Source: Pedosphaera sp. (GTDB lineage: Bacteria > Verrucomicrobiota > Verrucomicrobiia > Limisphaerales > SIBH01). Taken from it: a stretch of DNA of 32,336 bases. Where the stretch lies: positions 1 to 32,336 of the forward strand of contig SIBH01000011.1 of NCBI GenBank assembly GCA_009695285.1, read 5' to 3'. The notes below the pieces were generated by a model that saw nothing but the letters and a program-made list of their open reading frames with translations, was not told the origin of the DNA and did no database searches. A program made the position numbers and the translations under genes. This document shows positions 12,860 through 32,336 of this stretch, one piece after another. Within the stretch, counting starts at the first letter, position 1; each line of letters begins with the position of its first letter.

Positions 12860-13390
12860 TCAAAGCGGGTCCACGTGACCGTCGGCGAAGAGGACATATT
12901 TCCGGCCGTTGGTGCCGCCCGCGTGGAAGTTCTCGTAATCGTACATCAGCGTCGCCCGCTCGCTCGGAATGGTGAAGCCGCCGCCGCCGCCCCGGATGGC
13001 TTCAATGGGCATGCCGTTGCGGCTGTAGTTCCATTCGTAGCTGGACCCTTCCGTTTGGAAATATCGGATCCGATCCTGCGGACAGCGGAAGATCAGCGAG
13101 TTGCTGCCGCCGACCTGGGACGCGAGCACGTCGCAGATGCGGGGATAAATGTTGGTCGGGTCCACCGGCGTGGTCGGTTGGCGCTCGGCGAAGGGGAGCT
13201 TGCCCTCATTGTCGTCGGCGAAGAGCGTCAGGGCGATGCCGAGCTGTTTGAGGTTGCTCACGCAGTTGATGTCCTTGGCCTTGTTTTTGGAGCGGGCCAG
13301 CACGGGCAGGAGCAGGCCGGCGAGGATGGCAATGATGGCGATGACGACAAGCAACTCGATGAGCGTGAAGGCGCGGGTGAACTTTTTCAT
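12860..13390 (-). CDS. Type IV pilin-like / pseudopilin (DUF1559-type) protein
   Basis: A 176-residue protein with a prepilin leader and helix, [20 protein letters not shown], after a short basic N-terminus (MKKFTRA). Cleavage by prepilin peptidase would leave N-methylated Phe, and the helix packs into a pseudopilus or stays in the inner membrane. It continues [20 protein letters not shown] and ends [12 protein letters not shown], the H-x9-DG-type tail of planctomycete/verrucomicrobial prepilin-like proteins, which are present in many copies per genome. The ATG overlaps the stop of the upstream gene by one base (ATGA), so the two are coupled. Whether it builds a pseudopilus or an unrelated surface structure is unknown. 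Confidence 0.9.
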
Positions 13391-14897: not shown

Positions 14898-17800
14898 CTA
14901 TTTGGCGAAGACGGGATGATCTTTCCGCCCGGCGGCTTCGAGGAAGGCGACCAGATCGAGAATGTCTTCCTGGCTGAGGCCGCTCACTAGGCCTTCCGGC
15001 ATGGGGGAGAGCTTGGAGAAGGTGCGGGATTTCACGTCGGTCTTTTTGACTTCCACCTTGGTGTTTGGTTTGAGCGGATCCGGGACGAGGACAAGTTTGT
15101 CGGCGGTTTCTTCCACGAGCCGGCCGGTCACATCGTCGCCGTCCTTTTTTGTCACGGTGGTGTTCTGATATTGCTCGGAAAGAACTTTCGACGGCTCGGT
15201 GATGCTTTCCAAAATATCGCGACGGCCGAAACGCGAGGCCACGACGGTCAGATCAGGTCCGGTTCCGCTGCCCTCGACGCCGAAGCGATGACAGGCGAGG
15301 CACTGAGCATCGACAAAAGCCTGACGTCCGTTCTCGAGACTCCGGCCCTTGAGCGGTTGCTCGATCAAAGGTGCGATGTCGGCGGTCTTCCAGTCCTTGA
15401 CGAAGGCGCGGGGTTTGGCGGTGGGGAAGCTGCTGGGTGGTTTGGGTCCGGTGGAGATGCTCGCGAGGACCGACTCCAGAGCGGCCTTTTCGTCCTCACT
15501 CATCAACCCCACATGTTCCTTGAGAAAATTCTTCCGGAAATTTCCGTAGCTCGCGCCGTCGCTGTAAGGCCGGCCCGCTTCCTGAAACCATCTCAGGAGC
15601 CGCGCTTCATGGGTGTAGGCGTTGCGATCCTTGGCCCAGTAGCCCAGGTATTCGCGGCGTTGTTCGAGGGTCCATTTTCGGGCGGTGCGGAGGTGGAAGA
15701 GGTAGTGCATCATCTCCTCCTGGTTTTTGGCGGCCGCCATCACCTGCAAGGTTTTGCTGACGACATCGGGAGCGCCGAGGGCGATAAGCACCTGCGAAAG
15801 TTCCCGGTTCACGAGATCACTTTTGCTTGGGTAGCTGGCATTGAGTTTTTTCATCGTGGCATTCGCCGCGGTACTCGGGGGCAGTCCGTGGCGGGCGATG
15901 CTGACTTGGAGGGCGCGCAGCTTGGTGAGTTGCTGGGTTTCAGTGAGAGTGTCGAGCGGCCATTTTCCAAGGGCGCGGAAGCATTCTTCCTGCGCCGCCT
16001 TGCCGCCGAGGCGGACGAGCGCGAGCAGCGCGGTGGGGCCGCCGTCGGCGCTCTTCTCGGCTAGGGCGCGTGCCTGCCATTCCGCGACCGGCTGCGCTTC
16101 TAGGGCGATGCGCGCCGCGTAGCGGATGGAACGATCCGGGCTGTTCAAGTGTGGCCAGAGAAAATCGCTCGCTTTCGGGTCGGCCTTGCCGTGAAACGCC
16201 TCGAGTTGGTGACGCAGCTTTCGGGCGTCGGCTCCGGCGGTGTTTGGTTTCCAGGCTGGAGCGGTGGATTCCTTGCCGGTGTAGGTCACGCGGTAAAGGC
16301 CCGAAGGGGTGCCGCGTCCGCCGATGACGAAATACATGGCACCGTCGTTGCCGATGGTGAGGTCGGTGAGGTTGAGTGGGGGCTTGGGCGCACCGGAGTT
16401 GACGAGGCCAGCCGGCGCGACAAAGTTTTCAAACATGCCTTTGTAGCTCGCGCCATCCGGCTCGAGGTGGACGGCGATGAGGCGTCCGTAGGTCCAGTCC
16501 ATGATGTAAATGGCGTGCTGATATTTCGCCGGGAACTTTGCGCCCTTGCCGTTGCCCACGCCCGTCGGGCAGCCGATACCGATGTCCACGGCGGCCCCGA
16601 GACTGTCGGCGTGATAGTCCGGCCACTTGCCGGTGCCAAAGCGCCAGCCGAATTCCGCGCCCGAGACCGCATGGTTCACCCGCGTGGCCCGGTACCACGG
16701 CACACCCCAGTCGTATTCCATGTCCGCGTCGTAAACAAACAACTCGCCGTCCACATTGAAAGCGAAGTCGAACTGGTTGCGGAAGCCGGCGCAGAAGAAA
16801 TCAAACTTGGTTGCGTCTTTGTTCACGCGCAGAACATAACCGCCCGGGGCCATGATGCCGGTGGCGTGTCCGTTGCCGTCCGGTTGGCGCGGCAGGACGT
16901 GGTCTTCCTGGTAATTCTTATGCGGCGAATCCGGCGAGAGTCCCTCGGGGGGCTTGGTGTGATTTCCAGCCATGACCCAGAGATGGCCATCGGGGCCAAG
17001 CTCGATCGCGTGCGGCCCGTGCTCGCCCCCGCCCGGCATTTTCTTAATGAGCTCGATTTTGCTCCAGGTGTCGCTGCCGTCGTCGGTGATGCGGTAGAGG
17101 CCGGATTCGAACTTGGTGGAGTATTTGTTGACCACGACCCAGAGGGATCCATAGGCGAAGACCATGCCTTGGGCGTCGTAGAGAGGCTTGGCGATGAATT
17201 CGCGCTTCGCAATTTTTCCGTCCGCGCTGAGCGTGACGCGGAGCAGGCCGGCGTCGGGATTGTTCTTGCCGTACTGGGGGCTGATGATGAGCCGGCCCTT
17301 GTCGTCCTTGCACATGTTTACCCAAGAGCCTTCTTCCGGCTCGCCGGAGGTCAGCAGTTCGACCTGAAAATCTTTCGCCACGAACAGCGATTCGGCGGGG
17401 GTGGCGGCGCGTTTTTTCGCGACGGGCTTCGGCGCGGCCGGACCCGCGATGCCGGCGGGGATGGCGGCTCCCAAAACATTTCCCCACGGCTCAATGCCGA
17501 GCTTGCCGAGGGATTTGACGGCCACCCATTTCGAATCATCGAAGCCGACCTTGTTCCAGTCCTTCAGACCCTTGTCCGCGCCCTTCCAGGACGAGTCGGT
17601 GACGATGGATTGGCTGCCCTTGGCGGTGGTGAAGTCGAGTTTCGCAATGGCGCCGGCGGGGCTGGCATCCGCATTTTGGGCGCGGATGGCGATGACGTTT
17701 TCGCCGACGACGAGCTTGGAGGTGACGTTGGCTTTGGAGCCGGTGTGCCAGTCGATGGCGGTGATGACGAGGGCGCCGTTCAGGAATACTTCGAGTTCGT

Positions 17801-17984
17801 CGTCGGCCGTGGCAATGATTTCGGCCTTGGTCACCTTGTCCGCAATGGTGAAGGCCTTGCGGAAGTGGCGGACCTCGGCGTCCTCGGTTTTGTTGGACCA
17901 GATCCATTCGGGGGTTTGCGCGGCGAGACGGCCCGCGCAGGCCAGCAGCAACGAGAGGGAGAGGAGGCGTGGTGTGATGATCAT
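14898..17984 (-). CDS. Secreted PVC-type dehydrogenase with C-terminal cytochrome c domain
   Basis: 1028 residues. Signal peptide: MIITPRLLSLSLLLACAGRL then AAQ. Residues about 25-170 form a jelly-roll, galactose-binding-like domain (WIWSNKTEDAEVRHFRKAF, ELEVFLNGA). From about 198 a beta-propeller of the 'putative membrane-bound dehydrogenase' class follows (LFVAKDFQVELLTSGEPEEG, GRLIISPQYGKNN, GPHAIELGPDGHLWVMAGNH, CAGFRNQFDFAFN, YIMDWTYGRLIAVHLEPDGA). Residues about 590-860 are helical, HEAT-like. The C-terminal PVC heme-binding domain starts near 880 with CLACH at residues 895-899 (CxxCH heme c site), followed by GTGPDLTVVASRF and EDILDLVAFLEAAG. It is probably periplasmic, oxidising a sugar or glycan-derived substrate and passing electrons to heme c; the substrate is unknown. 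It is divergent from gyrB. Confidence 0.88.
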   Translation of the reverse strand: MIITPRLLSLSLLLACAGRLAAQTPEWIWSNKTEDAEVRHFRKAFTIADKVTKAEIIATADDELEVFLNGALVITAIDWHTGSKANVTSKLVVGENVIAIRAQNADASPAGAIAKLDFTTAKGSQSIVTDSSWKGADKGLKDWNKVGFDDSKWVAVKSLGKLGIEPWGNVLGAAIPAGIAGPAAPKPVAKKRAATPAESLFVAKDFQVELLTSGEPEEGSWVNMCKDDKGRLIISPQYGKNNPDAGLLRVTLSADGKIAKREFIAKPLYDAQGMVFAYGSLWVVVNKYSTKFESGLYRITDDGSDTWSKIELIKKMPGGGEHGPHAIELGPDGHLWVMAGNHTKPPEGLSPDSPHKNYQEDHVLPRQPDGNGHATGIMAPGGYVLRVNKDATKFDFFCAGFRNQFDFAFNVDGELFVYDADMEYDWGVPWYRATRVNHAVSGAEFGWRFGTGKWPDYHADSLGAAVDIGIGCPTGVGNGKGAKFPAKYQHAIYIMDWTYGRLIAVHLEPDGASYKGMFENFVAPAGLVNSGAPKPPLNLTDLTIGNDGAMYFVIGGRGTPSGLYRVTYTGKESTAPAWKPNTAGADARKLRHQLEAFHGKADPKASDFLWPHLNSPDRSIRYAARIALEAQPVAEWQARALAEKSADGGPTALLALVRLGGKAAQEECFRALGKWPLDTLTETQQLTKLRALQVSIARHGLPPSTAANATMKKLNASYPSKSDLVNRELSQVLIALGAPDVVSKTLQVMAAAKNQEEMMHYLFHLRTARKWTLEQRREYLGYWAKDRNAYTHEARLLRWFQEAGRPYSDGASYGNFRKNFLKEHVGLMSEDEKAALESVLASISTGPKPPSSFPTAKPRAFVKDWKTADIAPLIEQPLKGRSLENGRQAFVDAQCLACHRFGVEGSGTGPDLTVVASRFGRRDILESITEPSKVLSEQYQNTTVTKKDGDDVTGRLVEETADKLVLVPDPLKPNTKVEVKKTDVKSRTFSKLSPMPEGLVSGLSQEDILDLVAFLEAAGRKDHPVFAK

Positions 17985-27823: not shown

Positions 27824-29074
27824 ATGAAACGCCATTCATCTTCCGCCCAAGCCGCCGGTTCCCGGCCTGAACATTGCAGCCTTTATTCGCGGCGCGACTT
27901 CTTGCATCGCGCCGGGGCGCTGGCCGGGGCCGCCGCCCTCGGACTGAAACCGGACTCTCATGCCCAGGAGAAAAAGCCCATCCCGGGATTGGAACCCGCC
28001 CCCAATGACCCGAACGCCGCCAAGGGTTGGCAGCCTGTTTCCGATCGCAAGATACGCGTCGGCATTGTCGGTTACGGTGTCTGCCAGTTTGGCGCGGCCT
28101 TCGGTTTTCAGAGCCACCCGAACGTGGAAGTCGTGGCCGTCAGCGATTTGGTGCCCGGGCGTTGCGCCGCGTTGGCCAAGGCCTGCCGTTGTGAAAAGAC
28201 CTACTCGTCGCTCGAAGAGTTGGTCAAAGACGACAAGATCGAAGCCGTCTTTGTTGCCACGGATGCGCCGAGCCACGCGAAGCATTGCGTGGACGTCTTG
28301 AACCACGGCAAGCATGTGGCCTGCGCGGTGCCGGCGGTCTTCGGCTCGCTAGAGGACGCGGAGAAACTGTTGGAGGCCGTCAAGAAAAGTGGCCGAAAAT
28401 ACATGATGTTCGAGACGTCCTGCTTTCACGATGACCTGCACGCGATGCGGCAAATCTACCGGGCCGGCGGCCTGGGCCAGCTCGTCTATGCCGAGGGCGA
28501 GTATTATCACTACATGGACACGCCCATCGATTCCTACCAGGGCTGGCGGATCGGTTTGCCTCCGCAATGGTATCCGACCCATTCCAACGCCTATTACAAC
28601 TGCGTCACCGGCGGCAGTTTCACCGAAGTGTCCTGCCTGGGCATGCCGAGCAAGATCGAGCACCTGCGGCCAGCCAATAATCGTTATCAAAATCCGTTCG
28701 GCACCGAGATCGCGCTCTTCCGCACCAGCGAAGGTGGGACGGCGCGCATGGCGGTGAGCTGGGACACGCCCGGCGCGGGCGGGGAAATGGGCCGCATCCG
28801 CGGGCAGCGCGGCTCGTTCTACACCAAATATGACGGCCTCGAAAAATCTCTGCCGAACCTCAAGCGCCCGGCGCTTCCTCCGGGCGTGTCGGGCGGCGGC
28901 CATGGCGGATCGCATGGTCATCTGATGAACGAGTTCGTCCACGCCGTGCTGCAAGACCGCCAACCGCTGGTGGACATCGTCATGGCCCTGAACCTGACGG
29001 TCGCGGGCATCGTGGCCCATCAATCGGCCTTGAAGAACGGGGAGCTGATGAAAATTCCGCAATACAAGGTTTAG
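27824..29074 (+). CDS. Tat-exported Gfo/Idh/MocA-family oxidoreductase
   Basis: 416 residues. A twin-arginine signal SRRDFLHRAGALAGAAALGL (Arg23-Arg24) shows that a folded, cofactor-loaded enzyme is exported. The mature part begins with the Rossmann fold, RVGIVGYGVCQFG (glycine motif 83-90), AVSDL at the end of beta-2, and AVFVATDAPSHAKHCVDVLN. The family's usual E-K-P is replaced by A-V-P (residues 168-170, in HVACAVPAVFG), so the normal catalytic Lys is absent. The C-terminal half (YHYMDTPIDSYQGWRIGLPP, YNCVTGGSFTEVSCLGMPS, GHGGSHGHLMNEFV) fits the family's dimerisation/substrate domain. It probably acts on a sugar or sugar derivative in the periplasm with tightly bound NAD(P). It lies 113 bases upstream of the ThuA-dehydrogenase gene on the same strand. 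Confidence 0.88.
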   Translation: MKRHSSSAQAAGSRPEHCSLYSRRDFLHRAGALAGAAALGLKPDSHAQEKKPIPGLEPAPNDPNAAKGWQPVSDRKIRVGIVGYGVCQFGAAFGFQSHPNVEVVAVSDLVPGRCAALAKACRCEKTYSSLEELVKDDKIEAVFVATDAPSHAKHCVDVLNHGKHVACAVPAVFGSLEDAEKLLEAVKKSGRKYMMFETSCFHDDLHAMRQIYRAGGLGQLVYAEGEYYHYMDTPIDSYQGWRIGLPPQWYPTHSNAYYNCVTGGSFTEVSCLGMPSKIEHLRPANNRYQNPFGTEIALFRTSEGGTARMAVSWDTPGAGGEMGRIRGQRGSFYTKYDGLEKSLPNLKRPALPPGVSGGGHGGSHGHLMNEFVHAVLQDRQPLVDIVMALNLTVAGIVAHQSALKNGELMKIPQYKV

Positions 29075-29187
29075 ACTGGAACCGTCGTTTCCTTCTGTTC
29101 CATCCGTGCCATCCCGTTTCGACCGCGAAAGGTCTGGCACATCAAACTGAAAGCTGATAAAACATTCCCGTCATTGCCTTAACCATT

Positions 29188-32100
29188 ATGAAATCAAAAA
29201 TCTTCCTCGACTTCGCCGTGCTCGCCTTCGTGGGTGGCCAGCTACTTTCCGCCGCCGAACCGCTCCGTGTCTTCGTCCGTGCCGGCGTCAAGACGCACGG
29301 GCCGAACCAGCACGATCACCCGCATTTTCTCGCCGATTACACCAAGCTGCTGACCGAGCGCGGCATGAAGGTCGATGGCGCGTTGAAATTCCCCACCGGC
29401 GAACAGCTCGACCAGACGGACGTCGTCGTCATCTACGCCGCCGACGGCATGAGGATCACCGGACCGGACCGCGCGAATTTCGAGAAATTTCTCCAGCGCG
29501 GCGGCGGCGTGGTCGTCATCCATGACGGCGTGGTGAGCGGCGACCAGAATGAATGGTGCAAGAGCATCATCGGTGGCGCGTGGATCTGGCCGAAGGACAA
29601 TCCCGGCAAGACCGGCACGAAATTTCTGGAAGGGCAGGTGGGCGTGTTCTTTGTGGATGGAACGCATCCCATTTCGCGCGGCCTCTCGAACTTCGATTGG
29701 AAGGACGAGATTTATTACGATCTCGACATGGCCCCGGATGTGTTCGTGCTCGCGACCAGCTTTCACGACATCAACATCATCCTGCCGCAGCTCTGGACCT
29801 ACGAGAAGACCCTTGCGGGCGGCAGTGCGCCCTACCGCGCGTTCGTCAGCATACCGGGCCATGAATTCACCTCGTTCGAGGCGCCGCAGTACCGCGCGGT
29901 TTTACTGCGCGGCATCGCCTGGGCCGGGAAGCACGCGAACCCGGACAAGTTCTGCTCGAAGGAGGAACTGGCCTCGTTGAAATATCCCCCGGGCGGTCCG
30001 GTGCCGGCGGCCAAGGCGGTGAAGGAATTCAAGCTGCATCCTGAATTTAACGTCACGCTCACGGCTGATGAAAACATCGCGGAGAAAATTATGTCGGTCG
30101 AGTGGGATACCAAGGGACGGATGTGGGTCGCCGAGACGCCGGAGTATCCGAACGGCCGGATGAACAACAAAAACGATCTGAACGCCGAGCCGAACAAGCG
30201 GCTTGATCCCAAAAAATATCCTATCGGCGCGAAGGAAGACCGGCCGGGGCGCGACCGCATTTCGATGCTGGAAGACACGGACGGTGATGGCGTGATGGAC
30301 AAGAAGACGGTGTTTGCCGACGGCCTGGAGCTGGTCACCTCGCTCGTGTTTTACAAGGACGGCGTGATCGTGGCGCAGGCGCCGGACTTTCTTTGGATTC
30401 GCGACACGGATGGCGACGGCAAGGCGGACAAGGTGGAGAAGATTCTCACCGGTTGGGGCGTGGGCGACACGCACGCGGTGACGAGCAACCTGCGCTGGGG
30501 GCCGGACGGCTGGATCTACGGATCGGTCGGCTACAGCGCCGGCACCGTCTCTTCTGGTGACGGCTCCAAGAAATTTGGTCGCATTTCGGCGGGCATCTAC
30601 CGTTTCCGTCCCGACGGCTCCGCGCTGGAACAGGTGGCCGCCGGCGGCTGCAACCAGTGGGGCTGCGAGGTCGCGCCGGACGGCGAAATCATCTTCACCA
30701 CGGCGACCTGTGGCGCGCCGATCTGCCATGTGGTGATGCCGGAGAAATTTCTCGCGCGCGGCAACGTGGGCGGGCATCGCTCCTTCTCGAGCATCATGGA
30801 GGAAAATAAAATTTACCCGCCGTTCAAGGAAACGCGCAAACCCTACGTGCAAATTGACTGGGTCGGCGCCTGGACGGCGGCGACGGGTTCCGCCATCTAC
30901 GACGGCGGTGCGTGGCCTGGAAAGTGGGCGCCGGATGATCGCTACTCCTTTTTCCTGAGCGAGGCGACGATGCACATTTTTCATCACGAGTTTCTCGACC
31001 CAAAAGGCTCCACTTACCAGGGCCGCAAGGAAGAGGACCGCAAGGAAACACATTTCATGACCAGCACGGATTATTGGTTCCGCCCGATTCACAGCCGCGT
31101 CGGTCCCGATGGCGCGATGTATGTCGTGGATTTTTACAATCAGATCGCCGGCCACAATGACACGCGCGGCCCCAAGGTCGGCCACGGCGCGCGCAACGCC
31201 GCCGTCCGCCCGGACCGCGACCACCATTTCACCCGCGTCTATCGCGTGCAGCACAACGAGGCCGTGAAGCTGCCGGCGTTCAAACTCGACGCGAAAGATG
31301 CCGCCAGCCTGGTGAGCATGCTCTCTCATCCGAACGGCTGGGTGCGCACCACCGCCAACCGCCTGCTCAACGAGGCGCAGCCCGCCGCCGCCGGGCCCGC
31401 CCTTGCCGCCGCGATGAAGACCAGCGCGAGCAAATACGGACGCATCCAGGCGCTCTACGCCCTGAACAATCTCGGCCAGCTGGATGACAAGCTGATGGTG
31501 GCCGCCTTGACCGACAAAGATCCTGCCGTCCGAAAAAACGCCGCGCGCCTTGCTTCTGAGCGCACCGCCGTCTCCCCCGAAGTTCAGCGCTCGATCGAAG
31601 CCATGCTGCATGAAACTGACGGCCGCGCCCGCATCAATGCCGTCATGGCGCTCGGCAGTTTCCCCGCGACCGCCGAATCTTCGGCCGCCCTCGTCGCGGT
31701 CTGGCCTTCCGCCGCCACGGACAAGTTCATGCAGTCGGCCATCATCGGCGCTGCCTCGCAAAATCCCGGTGAAAGCATCAATGCCGCGCTGGCCCACGGC
31801 ACGGCGGGAACACACGACGGGTTCGTCAGTCATCTGGTGCGGGTGATTGCCACCAAAGGCGAACCGGAAAAGGCCGCCGCCTTCGTCATCGGCCTCAGCA
31901 AGGCTCCCGCCAGCGGGAATGCGCTCAAGGCCGTCGCGCTGGAAAGTCTGGCGGCGAACTTGAAGATCGTCCCGTCGTGGACTGCCGAGCTGCAGGCCGC
32001 GTTGAAAACCCTCATGGCCTCCCCGAATTCCGCCGTTGTCGCCGCGACCGTTCCGTTGATCGGCCGCTGGGACAAGGACGGCGCGCTGGCCGGCGAGATC

Positions 32101-32336
32101 AAGCCGCTCATCGGCTCGCTCACCGCCAAGCTTGCGGACAAATCTCTCTCCGATGATGCGCGCGCCCAGGCCGCCGCGAATTTGCTGGGCGTTCGTTCCC
32201 AGGACGCGGGGGCGATCGCCTCGGTGGCGAAGCTGCTCGGACCTGATCATTCGGCCGGTTTGCAACGGCTCATCGTCGAAGCGCTCGGCAACATTCCCGA
32301 TGCGCCCGCCGGCCAGGCACTGGTCGCGGCCTACCC
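29188..32336 (+). CDS. ThuA-domain / PVC dehydrogenase / HEAT protein, 3' end outside window
   Basis: The frame is open from ATG 29188 to the window edge (1049 codons, no stop). A signal peptide comes first (MKSKIFLDFAVLAFVGGQLL then SAAE). A ThuA-like domain (glutamine-amidotransferase fold) spans about 24-250: VFVRAGVKTHGPNQHDHPHF, VVVIYAADGM, GGGVVVIHDGVVSG and YRAFVSIPGHEFTSFEAPQY. From about 285 a 'membrane-bound dehydrogenase' propeller follows (IMSVEWDTKGRMWVAETPEY) with two DxDxDG calcium-like motifs (EDTDGDGVMD, RDTDGDGKAD), HAVTSNLRWGPDGWIYGSVG and HSRVGPDGAMYVVDFYNQ. From about 705 it is HEAT-like (LVSMLSHPNGWVRTTANRLL, DKDPAVRKNAARLA). In known members a heme c domain closes the protein; here it would lie past the edge. 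Likely periplasmic and working with the Gfo/Idh/MocA neighbour. Confidence 0.87.
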   Translation, partial: MKSKIFLDFAVLAFVGGQLLSAAEPLRVFVRAGVKTHGPNQHDHPHFLADYTKLLTERGMKVDGALKFPTGEQLDQTDVVVIYAADGMRITGPDRANFEKFLQRGGGVVVIHDGVVSGDQNEWCKSIIGGAWIWPKDNPGKTGTKFLEGQVGVFFVDGTHPISRGLSNFDWKDEIYYDLDMAPDVFVLATSFHDINIILPQLWTYEKTLAGGSAPYRAFVSIPGHEFTSFEAPQYRAVLLRGIAWAGKHANPDKFCSKEELASLKYPPGGPVPAAKAVKEFKLHPEFNVTLTADENIAEKIMSVEWDTKGRMWVAETPEYPNGRMNNKNDLNAEPNKRLDPKKYPIGAKEDRPGRDRISMLEDTDGDGVMDKKTVFADGLELVTSLVFYKDGVIVAQAPDFLWIRDTDGDGKADKVEKILTGWGVGDTHAVTSNLRWGPDGWIYGSVGYSAGTVSSGDGSKKFGRISAGIYRFRPDGSALEQVAAGGCNQWGCEVAPDGEIIFTTATCGAPICHVVMPEKFLARGNVGGHRSFSSIMEENKIYPPFKETRKPYVQIDWVGAWTAATGSAIYDGGAWPGKWAPDDRYSFFLSEATMHIFHHEFLDPKGSTYQGRKEEDRKETHFMTSTDYWFRPIHSRVGPDGAMYVVDFYNQIAGHNDTRGPKVGHGARNAAVRPDRDHHFTRVYRVQHNEAVKLPAFKLDAKDAASLVSMLSHPNGWVRTTANRLLNEAQPAAAGPALAAAMKTSASKYGRIQALYALNNLGQLDDKLMVAALTDKDPAVRKNAARLASERTAVSPEVQRSIEAMLHETDGRARINAVMALGSFPATAESSAALVAVWPSAATDKFMQSAIIGAASQNPGESINAALAHGTAGTHDGFVSHLVRVIATKGEPEKAAAFVIGLSKAPASGNALKAVALESLAANLKIVPSWTAELQAALKTLMASPNSAVVAATVPLIGRWDKDGALAGEIKPLIGSLTAKLADKSLSDDARAQAAANLLGVRSQDAGAIASVAKLLGPDHSAGLQRLIVEALGNIPDAPAGQALVAAY

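Follow-up and report, generated by a model that had tools for sequence, protein, structure and literature searches.

A predicted Tat-exported Gfo-fold protein with GH109-like active-site residues, encoded beside a ThuA-propeller fusion in Pedosphaera sp.

In rhizobia, ThuA and the Gfo/Idh/MocA protein ThuB act together in trehalose 3-keto metabolism. The catalytic lysine of ordinary Gfo/Idh/MocA dehydrogenases is carried by an EKP motif. Glucose-fructose oxidoreductase is exported with its cofactor bound. On the established view, recycling of NAD is expected only within the cytoplasm. For the GH109 enzyme AmGH109A, His404, Tyr226 and His259 are proposed as catalytic residues in PMC10755693, whose reference list includes a title that assigns the acid-base of GH109 to a conserved GGHGG loop. 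The same source proposes redox-neutral glycoside cleavage for the NAD+-dependent sulfoquinovosidases of GH188, of which ArSqgA keeps Lys107 at the C3-OH, plus a sulfonate pocket. A LacABC-type 3-dehydrogenase with a DUF1080 hydrolase is presented in PMC9007349 as a periplasmic route to 3-keto disaccharides.

In this study, we report the analysis of a window of 32,336 nucleotides from Pedosphaera sp., which is the entire contig SIBH01000011.1 (G000:C99:1-32336) of a 57%-complete assembly of 2.15 Mb. A Gfo-fold protein and a ThuA fusion protein are encoded near its end on the same strand, 113 bp apart. The window being a whole contig, its end cuts the fusion gene, and the 3' end of this gene is therefore missing. 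Both open reading frames are real, and their domains are those described in the initial annotation (ORF list, Pfam and TIGRFAM matches). The genes and the domains of the fusion are as follows.

27824..29074, plus strand: Gfo-fold protein, predicted Tat-exported, with GH109-like active-site residues (416 aa; ORF, Pfam, Tat model, alignment, structure model)
29188..32336, plus strand: ThuA / PVC propeller / HEAT protein, predicted secreted, open at the 3' end (ORF 29188-32334, 1049 aa)
29326..29925, plus strand: ThuA domain of the fusion, residues 47-246 (PF06283, E 2.7e-26)
30010..31257, plus strand: DUF7133 / TIGR02604 propeller of the fusion, residues 275-690 (DUF7133 E 7.7e-112; TIGR02604 E 1.8e-70)
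31270..32334, plus strand: HEAT-repeat region of the fusion, limits approximate (repeat-protein matches; best PF13646 (HEAT_2) stretch at residues 769-844)
14898..17984, minus strand: second PVC propeller and heme-c protein (TIGR02604, TIGR02603, PF00034)

The protein at 14898-17984 had been put forward as a possible functional relative of the fusion; the kinship is borne out for the propeller and for the heme domain, which in the fusion is a predicted one, and no ThuA domain was listed for this protein by Pfam at E<=0.001. One weak promoter-like site was found upstream of the Gfo gene (0.4 expected), and no terminator-like site was found by the scan between the Gfo and fusion genes; both results are uninformative. 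Elsewhere in the window, the minus strand at 12860-13390 encodes a prepilin-like N-terminus; such N-termini are common in PVC bacteria.

The Gfo protein carries the GFO_IDH_MocA NAD-binding Rossmann domain (PF01408, E 1.4e-19) and matches the Tat signal model TIGR01409 (E 1e-4). Relatives were collected by a scan in which at least 573 candidate stretches encode a Gfo relative, and closeness to the family was checked for the best 79. Intact proteins were obtained from 77 of these 79 loci, L139 and L206 being dropped for reading frame, and were aligned with the window protein to give 78 rows. Residues were mapped using an hhalign global profile alignment against six GH109 proteins of the same order, found via PF21252. 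The sites of interest in the window protein are as follows.

27887..27904, plus strand: twin-arginine motif SRRDFL, residues 22-27 (TIGR01409; R23 and R24 at least 90% conserved in the alignment)
28325..28336, plus strand: AVPA, residues 168-171, at the EKP position of ordinary Gfo dehydrogenases (V169 in 78/78 rows)
28502..28504, plus strand: Y227, aligned to Tyr226 of AmGH109A (invariant, 78/78 rows)
28571..28582, plus strand: YPTH, residues 250-253, with H253 aligned to His259 of AmGH109A (H253 invariant, 78/78 rows)
28895..28909, plus strand: GGHGG loop, residues 358-362, with H360 aligned to the GH109 GGHGG loop (H360 invariant, 78/78)

The EKP lysine is thus replaced by valine in every row, mostly inside AVPA. 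The profile alignment places H360 on the GH109 GGHGG loop and H253 on YPTH; as a check of register, Y227 falls on the tyrosine numbered 226 in AmGH109A when the YPTH histidine is taken as 259. H253 may be a general catalytic histidine of Gfo proteins and not a mark of GH109. The active site differs from that of GH109: the glutamate of the GH109 EVP motif is alanine in 77 of the 78 rows, and a further histidine, H364, is invariant. The GH109 C-terminal model PF21252 gave no match at E<=10 with the window protein and two relatives, and for this reason the window protein is not filed under GH109.

The structure model of the Gfo protein is confident (pLDDT 87.3). Its nearest structures are two GH109 entries, with Z scores of 36.2 and 34.6, followed by 33.7 for the next entry; the lead of GH109 over levoglucosan dehydrogenase is small, and Foldseek E-values put several other Gfo enzymes ahead of GH109 for the same model. 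Like the NAD+-dependent α-N-acetylgalactosaminidases of GH109 (AmGH109A, 6t2b; 2ixa), the window protein has the Gfo fold over the whole length, the GGHGG loop, equivalents of Tyr226 and His259 and no EKP lysine, but it is only about 20% identical to them, lacks a PF21252 match, has AVPA in place of EVP and belongs to a separate clade. The Gfo fold is also shared with the GH188 sulfoquinovosidases (8qc5, Z 32.1), whereas the position of the EKP lysine is valine in the window protein and ArSqgA of GH188 has Lys107. The window genome encodes seven other Gfo proteins, of which five have EKP and one an HGG loop. In the tree, in which branches are long, the Gfo family and GH109 formed separate supported clades joined together with this last sibling, apart from the other six. 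The sibling itself (L002, G000:C42:5199-5864) has no Tat signal, is 28% identical to the window protein and has HGGSHPH and no YPTH. Judged from alignment and model, the Gfo protein probably works like GH109.

The Gfo family spans Verrucomicrobiota, Planctomycetota, Kiritimatiellota, Lentisphaerae and Bacteroidota. Gene neighbourhoods were examined using a simple ORF picker, and a close same-strand neighbour was present at 39 of 68 Gfo loci; such neighbour counts are lower bounds, since the picker recovered the Gfo gene in 69 of the 79 loci. Gfo loci of Larkinella and Dyadobacter contained SusC-, SusD- and GntR-like genes, named by eye from sequence, together with genes for a class III aminotransferase, an enolase-superfamily protein, an SDR, a ceramidase-like protein and an SSS symporter, and in some loci a lactonase-like SGL protein, these being identified by Pfam on eight neighbours picked by eye. 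Selected neighbours elsewhere (10, also picked by eye) included sulfatases, GH31, GH95, a GH36-type protein and a sugar kinase; the one from L184 gave no match and that from L137 matched a beta-lactamase family. These neighbourhoods fit glycan breakdown. A search of open-access papers found no literature on this Gfo clade.

Seven loci of cultured Larkinella and Dyadobacter (L150, L169, L181, L185, L190, L198 and L202) share a conserved arrangement of SusC/D-like, Gfo, class III aminotransferase, enolase-superfamily, SDR, ceramidase-like and symporter genes. The Gfo proteins of Larkinella arboricola and of a Dyadobacter, both cultured, are relatives at about 70% identity. An uncultured Bacteroidetes contig (L175, CAIJYD010000106.1) encodes 11 members of the Gfo family on one strand beside SusC/SusD-like genes; this paralogue array is unusual and is interrupted by a few other genes.

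The fusion protein scored 238 bits against TIGR02604, the N-terminal model of PVC-type heme-binding CxxCH proteins, for which the cut-off is 122. No CxxCH occurs in the part of the fusion present in the window, in agreement with the initial annotation, which had expected a heme c domain just past the contig end. Relatives were hand-chosen from the longer matches, partial contigs being excluded (20 proteins from 19 genomes, 42-65% identical). Exactly one CxxCH was present in each of the 20, lying 102-103 residues beyond the point at which the window protein is cut, and heme c just beyond the window is therefore strongly predicted by homology. A search of the organism's own assembly did not recover the missing C-terminus, the best matches being at most 39% identical and belonging to other PVC cytochrome-like frames; the heme of the window fusion is accordingly a predicted one and not one seen. 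More than 500 further residues, ending in a second ThuA-like domain, were present in 16 of the 20 relatives, and Pfam listed two ThuA stretches in three of the five relatives scanned. By homology, the part past the contig end is thus expected to include heme c and frequently a further ThuA domain. The fusion resembles the PVC-type CxxCH proteins (TIGR02604/TIGR02603) in its propeller and in the CxxCH of its relatives, but differs from them in the ThuA domain in front and the second, terminal one in most relatives. A DUF1080 domain was expected between the heme and the second ThuA; none was listed there by Pfam. Relatives such as L102 and L109 have a conserved stretch of about 200-300 residues at this place, with no Pfam match at E<=0.001. 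Literature on ThuA-cytochrome fusions was likewise sought among open-access papers and none was found.

The structure model of the propeller is weak (pLDDT 61.4). Every one of its 16 best structural matches is a PQQ-type sugar dehydrogenase or an AA12 enzyme (sGDH and AA12; 3a9g, 6h7t, 1cq1), at 10-17% identity. Comparison of the window ThuA domain with solved structures gave nothing usable, and the whole fusion matched designed alpha-repeat proteins only. PqqC was found above the cut-off in three of 58 genomes, only one of them among the 27 with the fusion; the genome of the window organism, 57% complete, gave no PqqC above the cut-off. Its lack above the cut-off in most fusion holders speaks against a quinoprotein; PQQ might be taken up from outside. 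The propeller model suggests that electrons would reach the heme from the propeller of its own chain, so that the fusion would have no need of the Gfo enzyme.

Whether the two genes travel together was examined in loci and in genomes. The ThuA fusion was present in 0 of 99 Gfo loci, and the Gfo gene in 0 of 20 fusion loci; weak propeller matches (25-29% identity) were found in three Gfo loci. The 99 comprise 20 hand-chosen loci and the best 79, some with short flanks, and at most 93 are different because at least six contigs, judged by their length, are common to both sets. Among 57 other genomes, all related but fragmented assemblies from outside the window organism's own family, 27 held the fusion (listed by hand from matches of at least 44% identity), 15 the Gfo gene and six both, where 7.1 were expected (Fisher p=0.56); in all six, the two genes lay on different contigs. 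The initial annotation had named lack of co-occurrence in relatives as one of the outcomes that would refute its proposal, and this is what was found. As the pairing is absent in relatives, the adjacency in the window is best read as local. The likeness to rhizobial ThuA/ThuB is that a ThuA domain and a Gfo-fold protein are encoded by neighbouring genes; the window proteins differ in that both are predicted to be exported, the ThuA is fused to a propeller and the pairing is not conserved. With no evidence of substrate found either, a ThuA/ThuB-like role in trehalose metabolism was not borne out. The exported and sugar-related nature of both proteins, as first proposed, is supported.

The two-gene electron module of the initial annotation, in which the exported Gfo protein makes a 3-keto sugar, ThuA processes it and the heme c of the fusion receives the electrons, draws on the adjacency of the genes, on the heme predicted in the fusion and on at least 13 full or near-full matches in the window genome to DUF1080, a 3-keto-disaccharide hydrolase, which make it likely that this cell has 3-keto sugar chemistry. 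The module was rejected on the lack of pairing in loci and the chance co-occurrence in genomes, and we consider it very unlikely. A Gfo donor of electrons to heme is also at odds with the loss of the EKP lysine in all 78 rows and the presence of the redox-neutral GH109 residues, and it is not evident how an exported protein with trapped NAD could reduce a cytochrome. No LacABC-type genes were identified beside the window genes, the DUF1080 genes lying elsewhere in the genome. Two other loci of the same genome encode Tat-type Gfo proteins adjoining a DUF1080 match, one with EKP (L007, G000:C100:10346-12012) and one recorded as L005 and L217 (G000:C104:18462-19834), in which L005 has EAP in place of EKP; in this genome, a periplasmic 3-keto module is more plausibly encoded at these loci than by the window pair.

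A different activity for the Gfo clade was also considered. As a lyase or epimerase, it would use the same bound NAD, 3-keto and elimination steps and release an unsaturated or rearranged sugar; the alanine in place of the GH109 glutamate, the extra invariant H364 and the enolase-superfamily, SDR and lactonase genes near the Bacteroidota members could be read in this way, but all three residues proposed for GH109 hydrolysis are kept, and we regard this as unlikely. A cofactor-retaining enzyme like glucose-fructose oxidoreductase, coupling the oxidation of one sugar to the reduction of another, is suggested by the presence of that enzyme among the sequence and fold matches of the Gfo protein; the uniformly missing EKP lysine, the GGHGG loop and the structurally nearer GH109 make it quite improbable. 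Loss of the usual catalytic lysine might point to a non-catalytic sugar- or cofactor-binding protein, but polar residues strictly invariant over several phyla and the many paralogues of L175 fit an enzyme better, and there is little to recommend this reading.

Our best explanation, to which we give about an even chance, is that the two genes encode independent periplasmic sugar-handling parts, a GH109-like, redox-neutral Gfo enzyme beside a separate PVC cytochrome fusion. The chemistry, substrates and electron flow that we infer for the two proteins would be as follows. The Gfo protein would be exported folded via Tat with its nicotinamide cofactor bound, and the bound NAD+ would transiently oxidise C3 of a glycoside. 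The Tyr and His residues would drive C2 elimination and C1 cleavage, after which water would add and the same NADH would reduce C3 again, so that no outside electron acceptor would be needed. In the fusion, a sugar would be oxidised by the propeller, whose fold is putatively that of PQQ sugar dehydrogenases, and the electrons would go to heme c within the same chain; the substrate of the one or two ThuA domains would be this sugar or the keto product made from it.

The invariance of H360, Y227 and H253, the lost EKP lysine, the fold, the glycan-related neighbours, the lack of pairing with the fusion, the CxxCH of all 20 fusion relatives and the nearest structures of the propeller model argue for this explanation. 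The missing PF21252 match, the alanine for the EVP glutamate, the Foldseek order, the small Z lead and the long branches argue against it, as do the low pLDDT of the propeller model and the single PqqC among 27 fusion holders against the propeller part. A bolder proposal, which is doubtful at present, takes the Gfo clade as an undescribed family of NAD+-dependent enzymes that are exported by Tat and cleave glycosides, with AVPA standing where EKP or EVP would be, and takes the fusions as periplasmic sugar oxidases in which the PQQ-type propeller, heme c and up to two ThuA domains of a single chain would oxidise a sugar and process the keto product.

The more interesting finding is a GH109-like site, widespread and strictly conserved, in a family classed as oxidoreductases by general models. 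Hundreds of genes matching only the general Gfo/Idh/MocA models may be glycosidases of the GH109 kind. For the fusions, a sugar-dehydrogenase-like propeller and heme c in one chain make a direct proposal on function; if true, ThuA fusions acting as periplasmic sugar oxidases would give PVC cytochromes a function.
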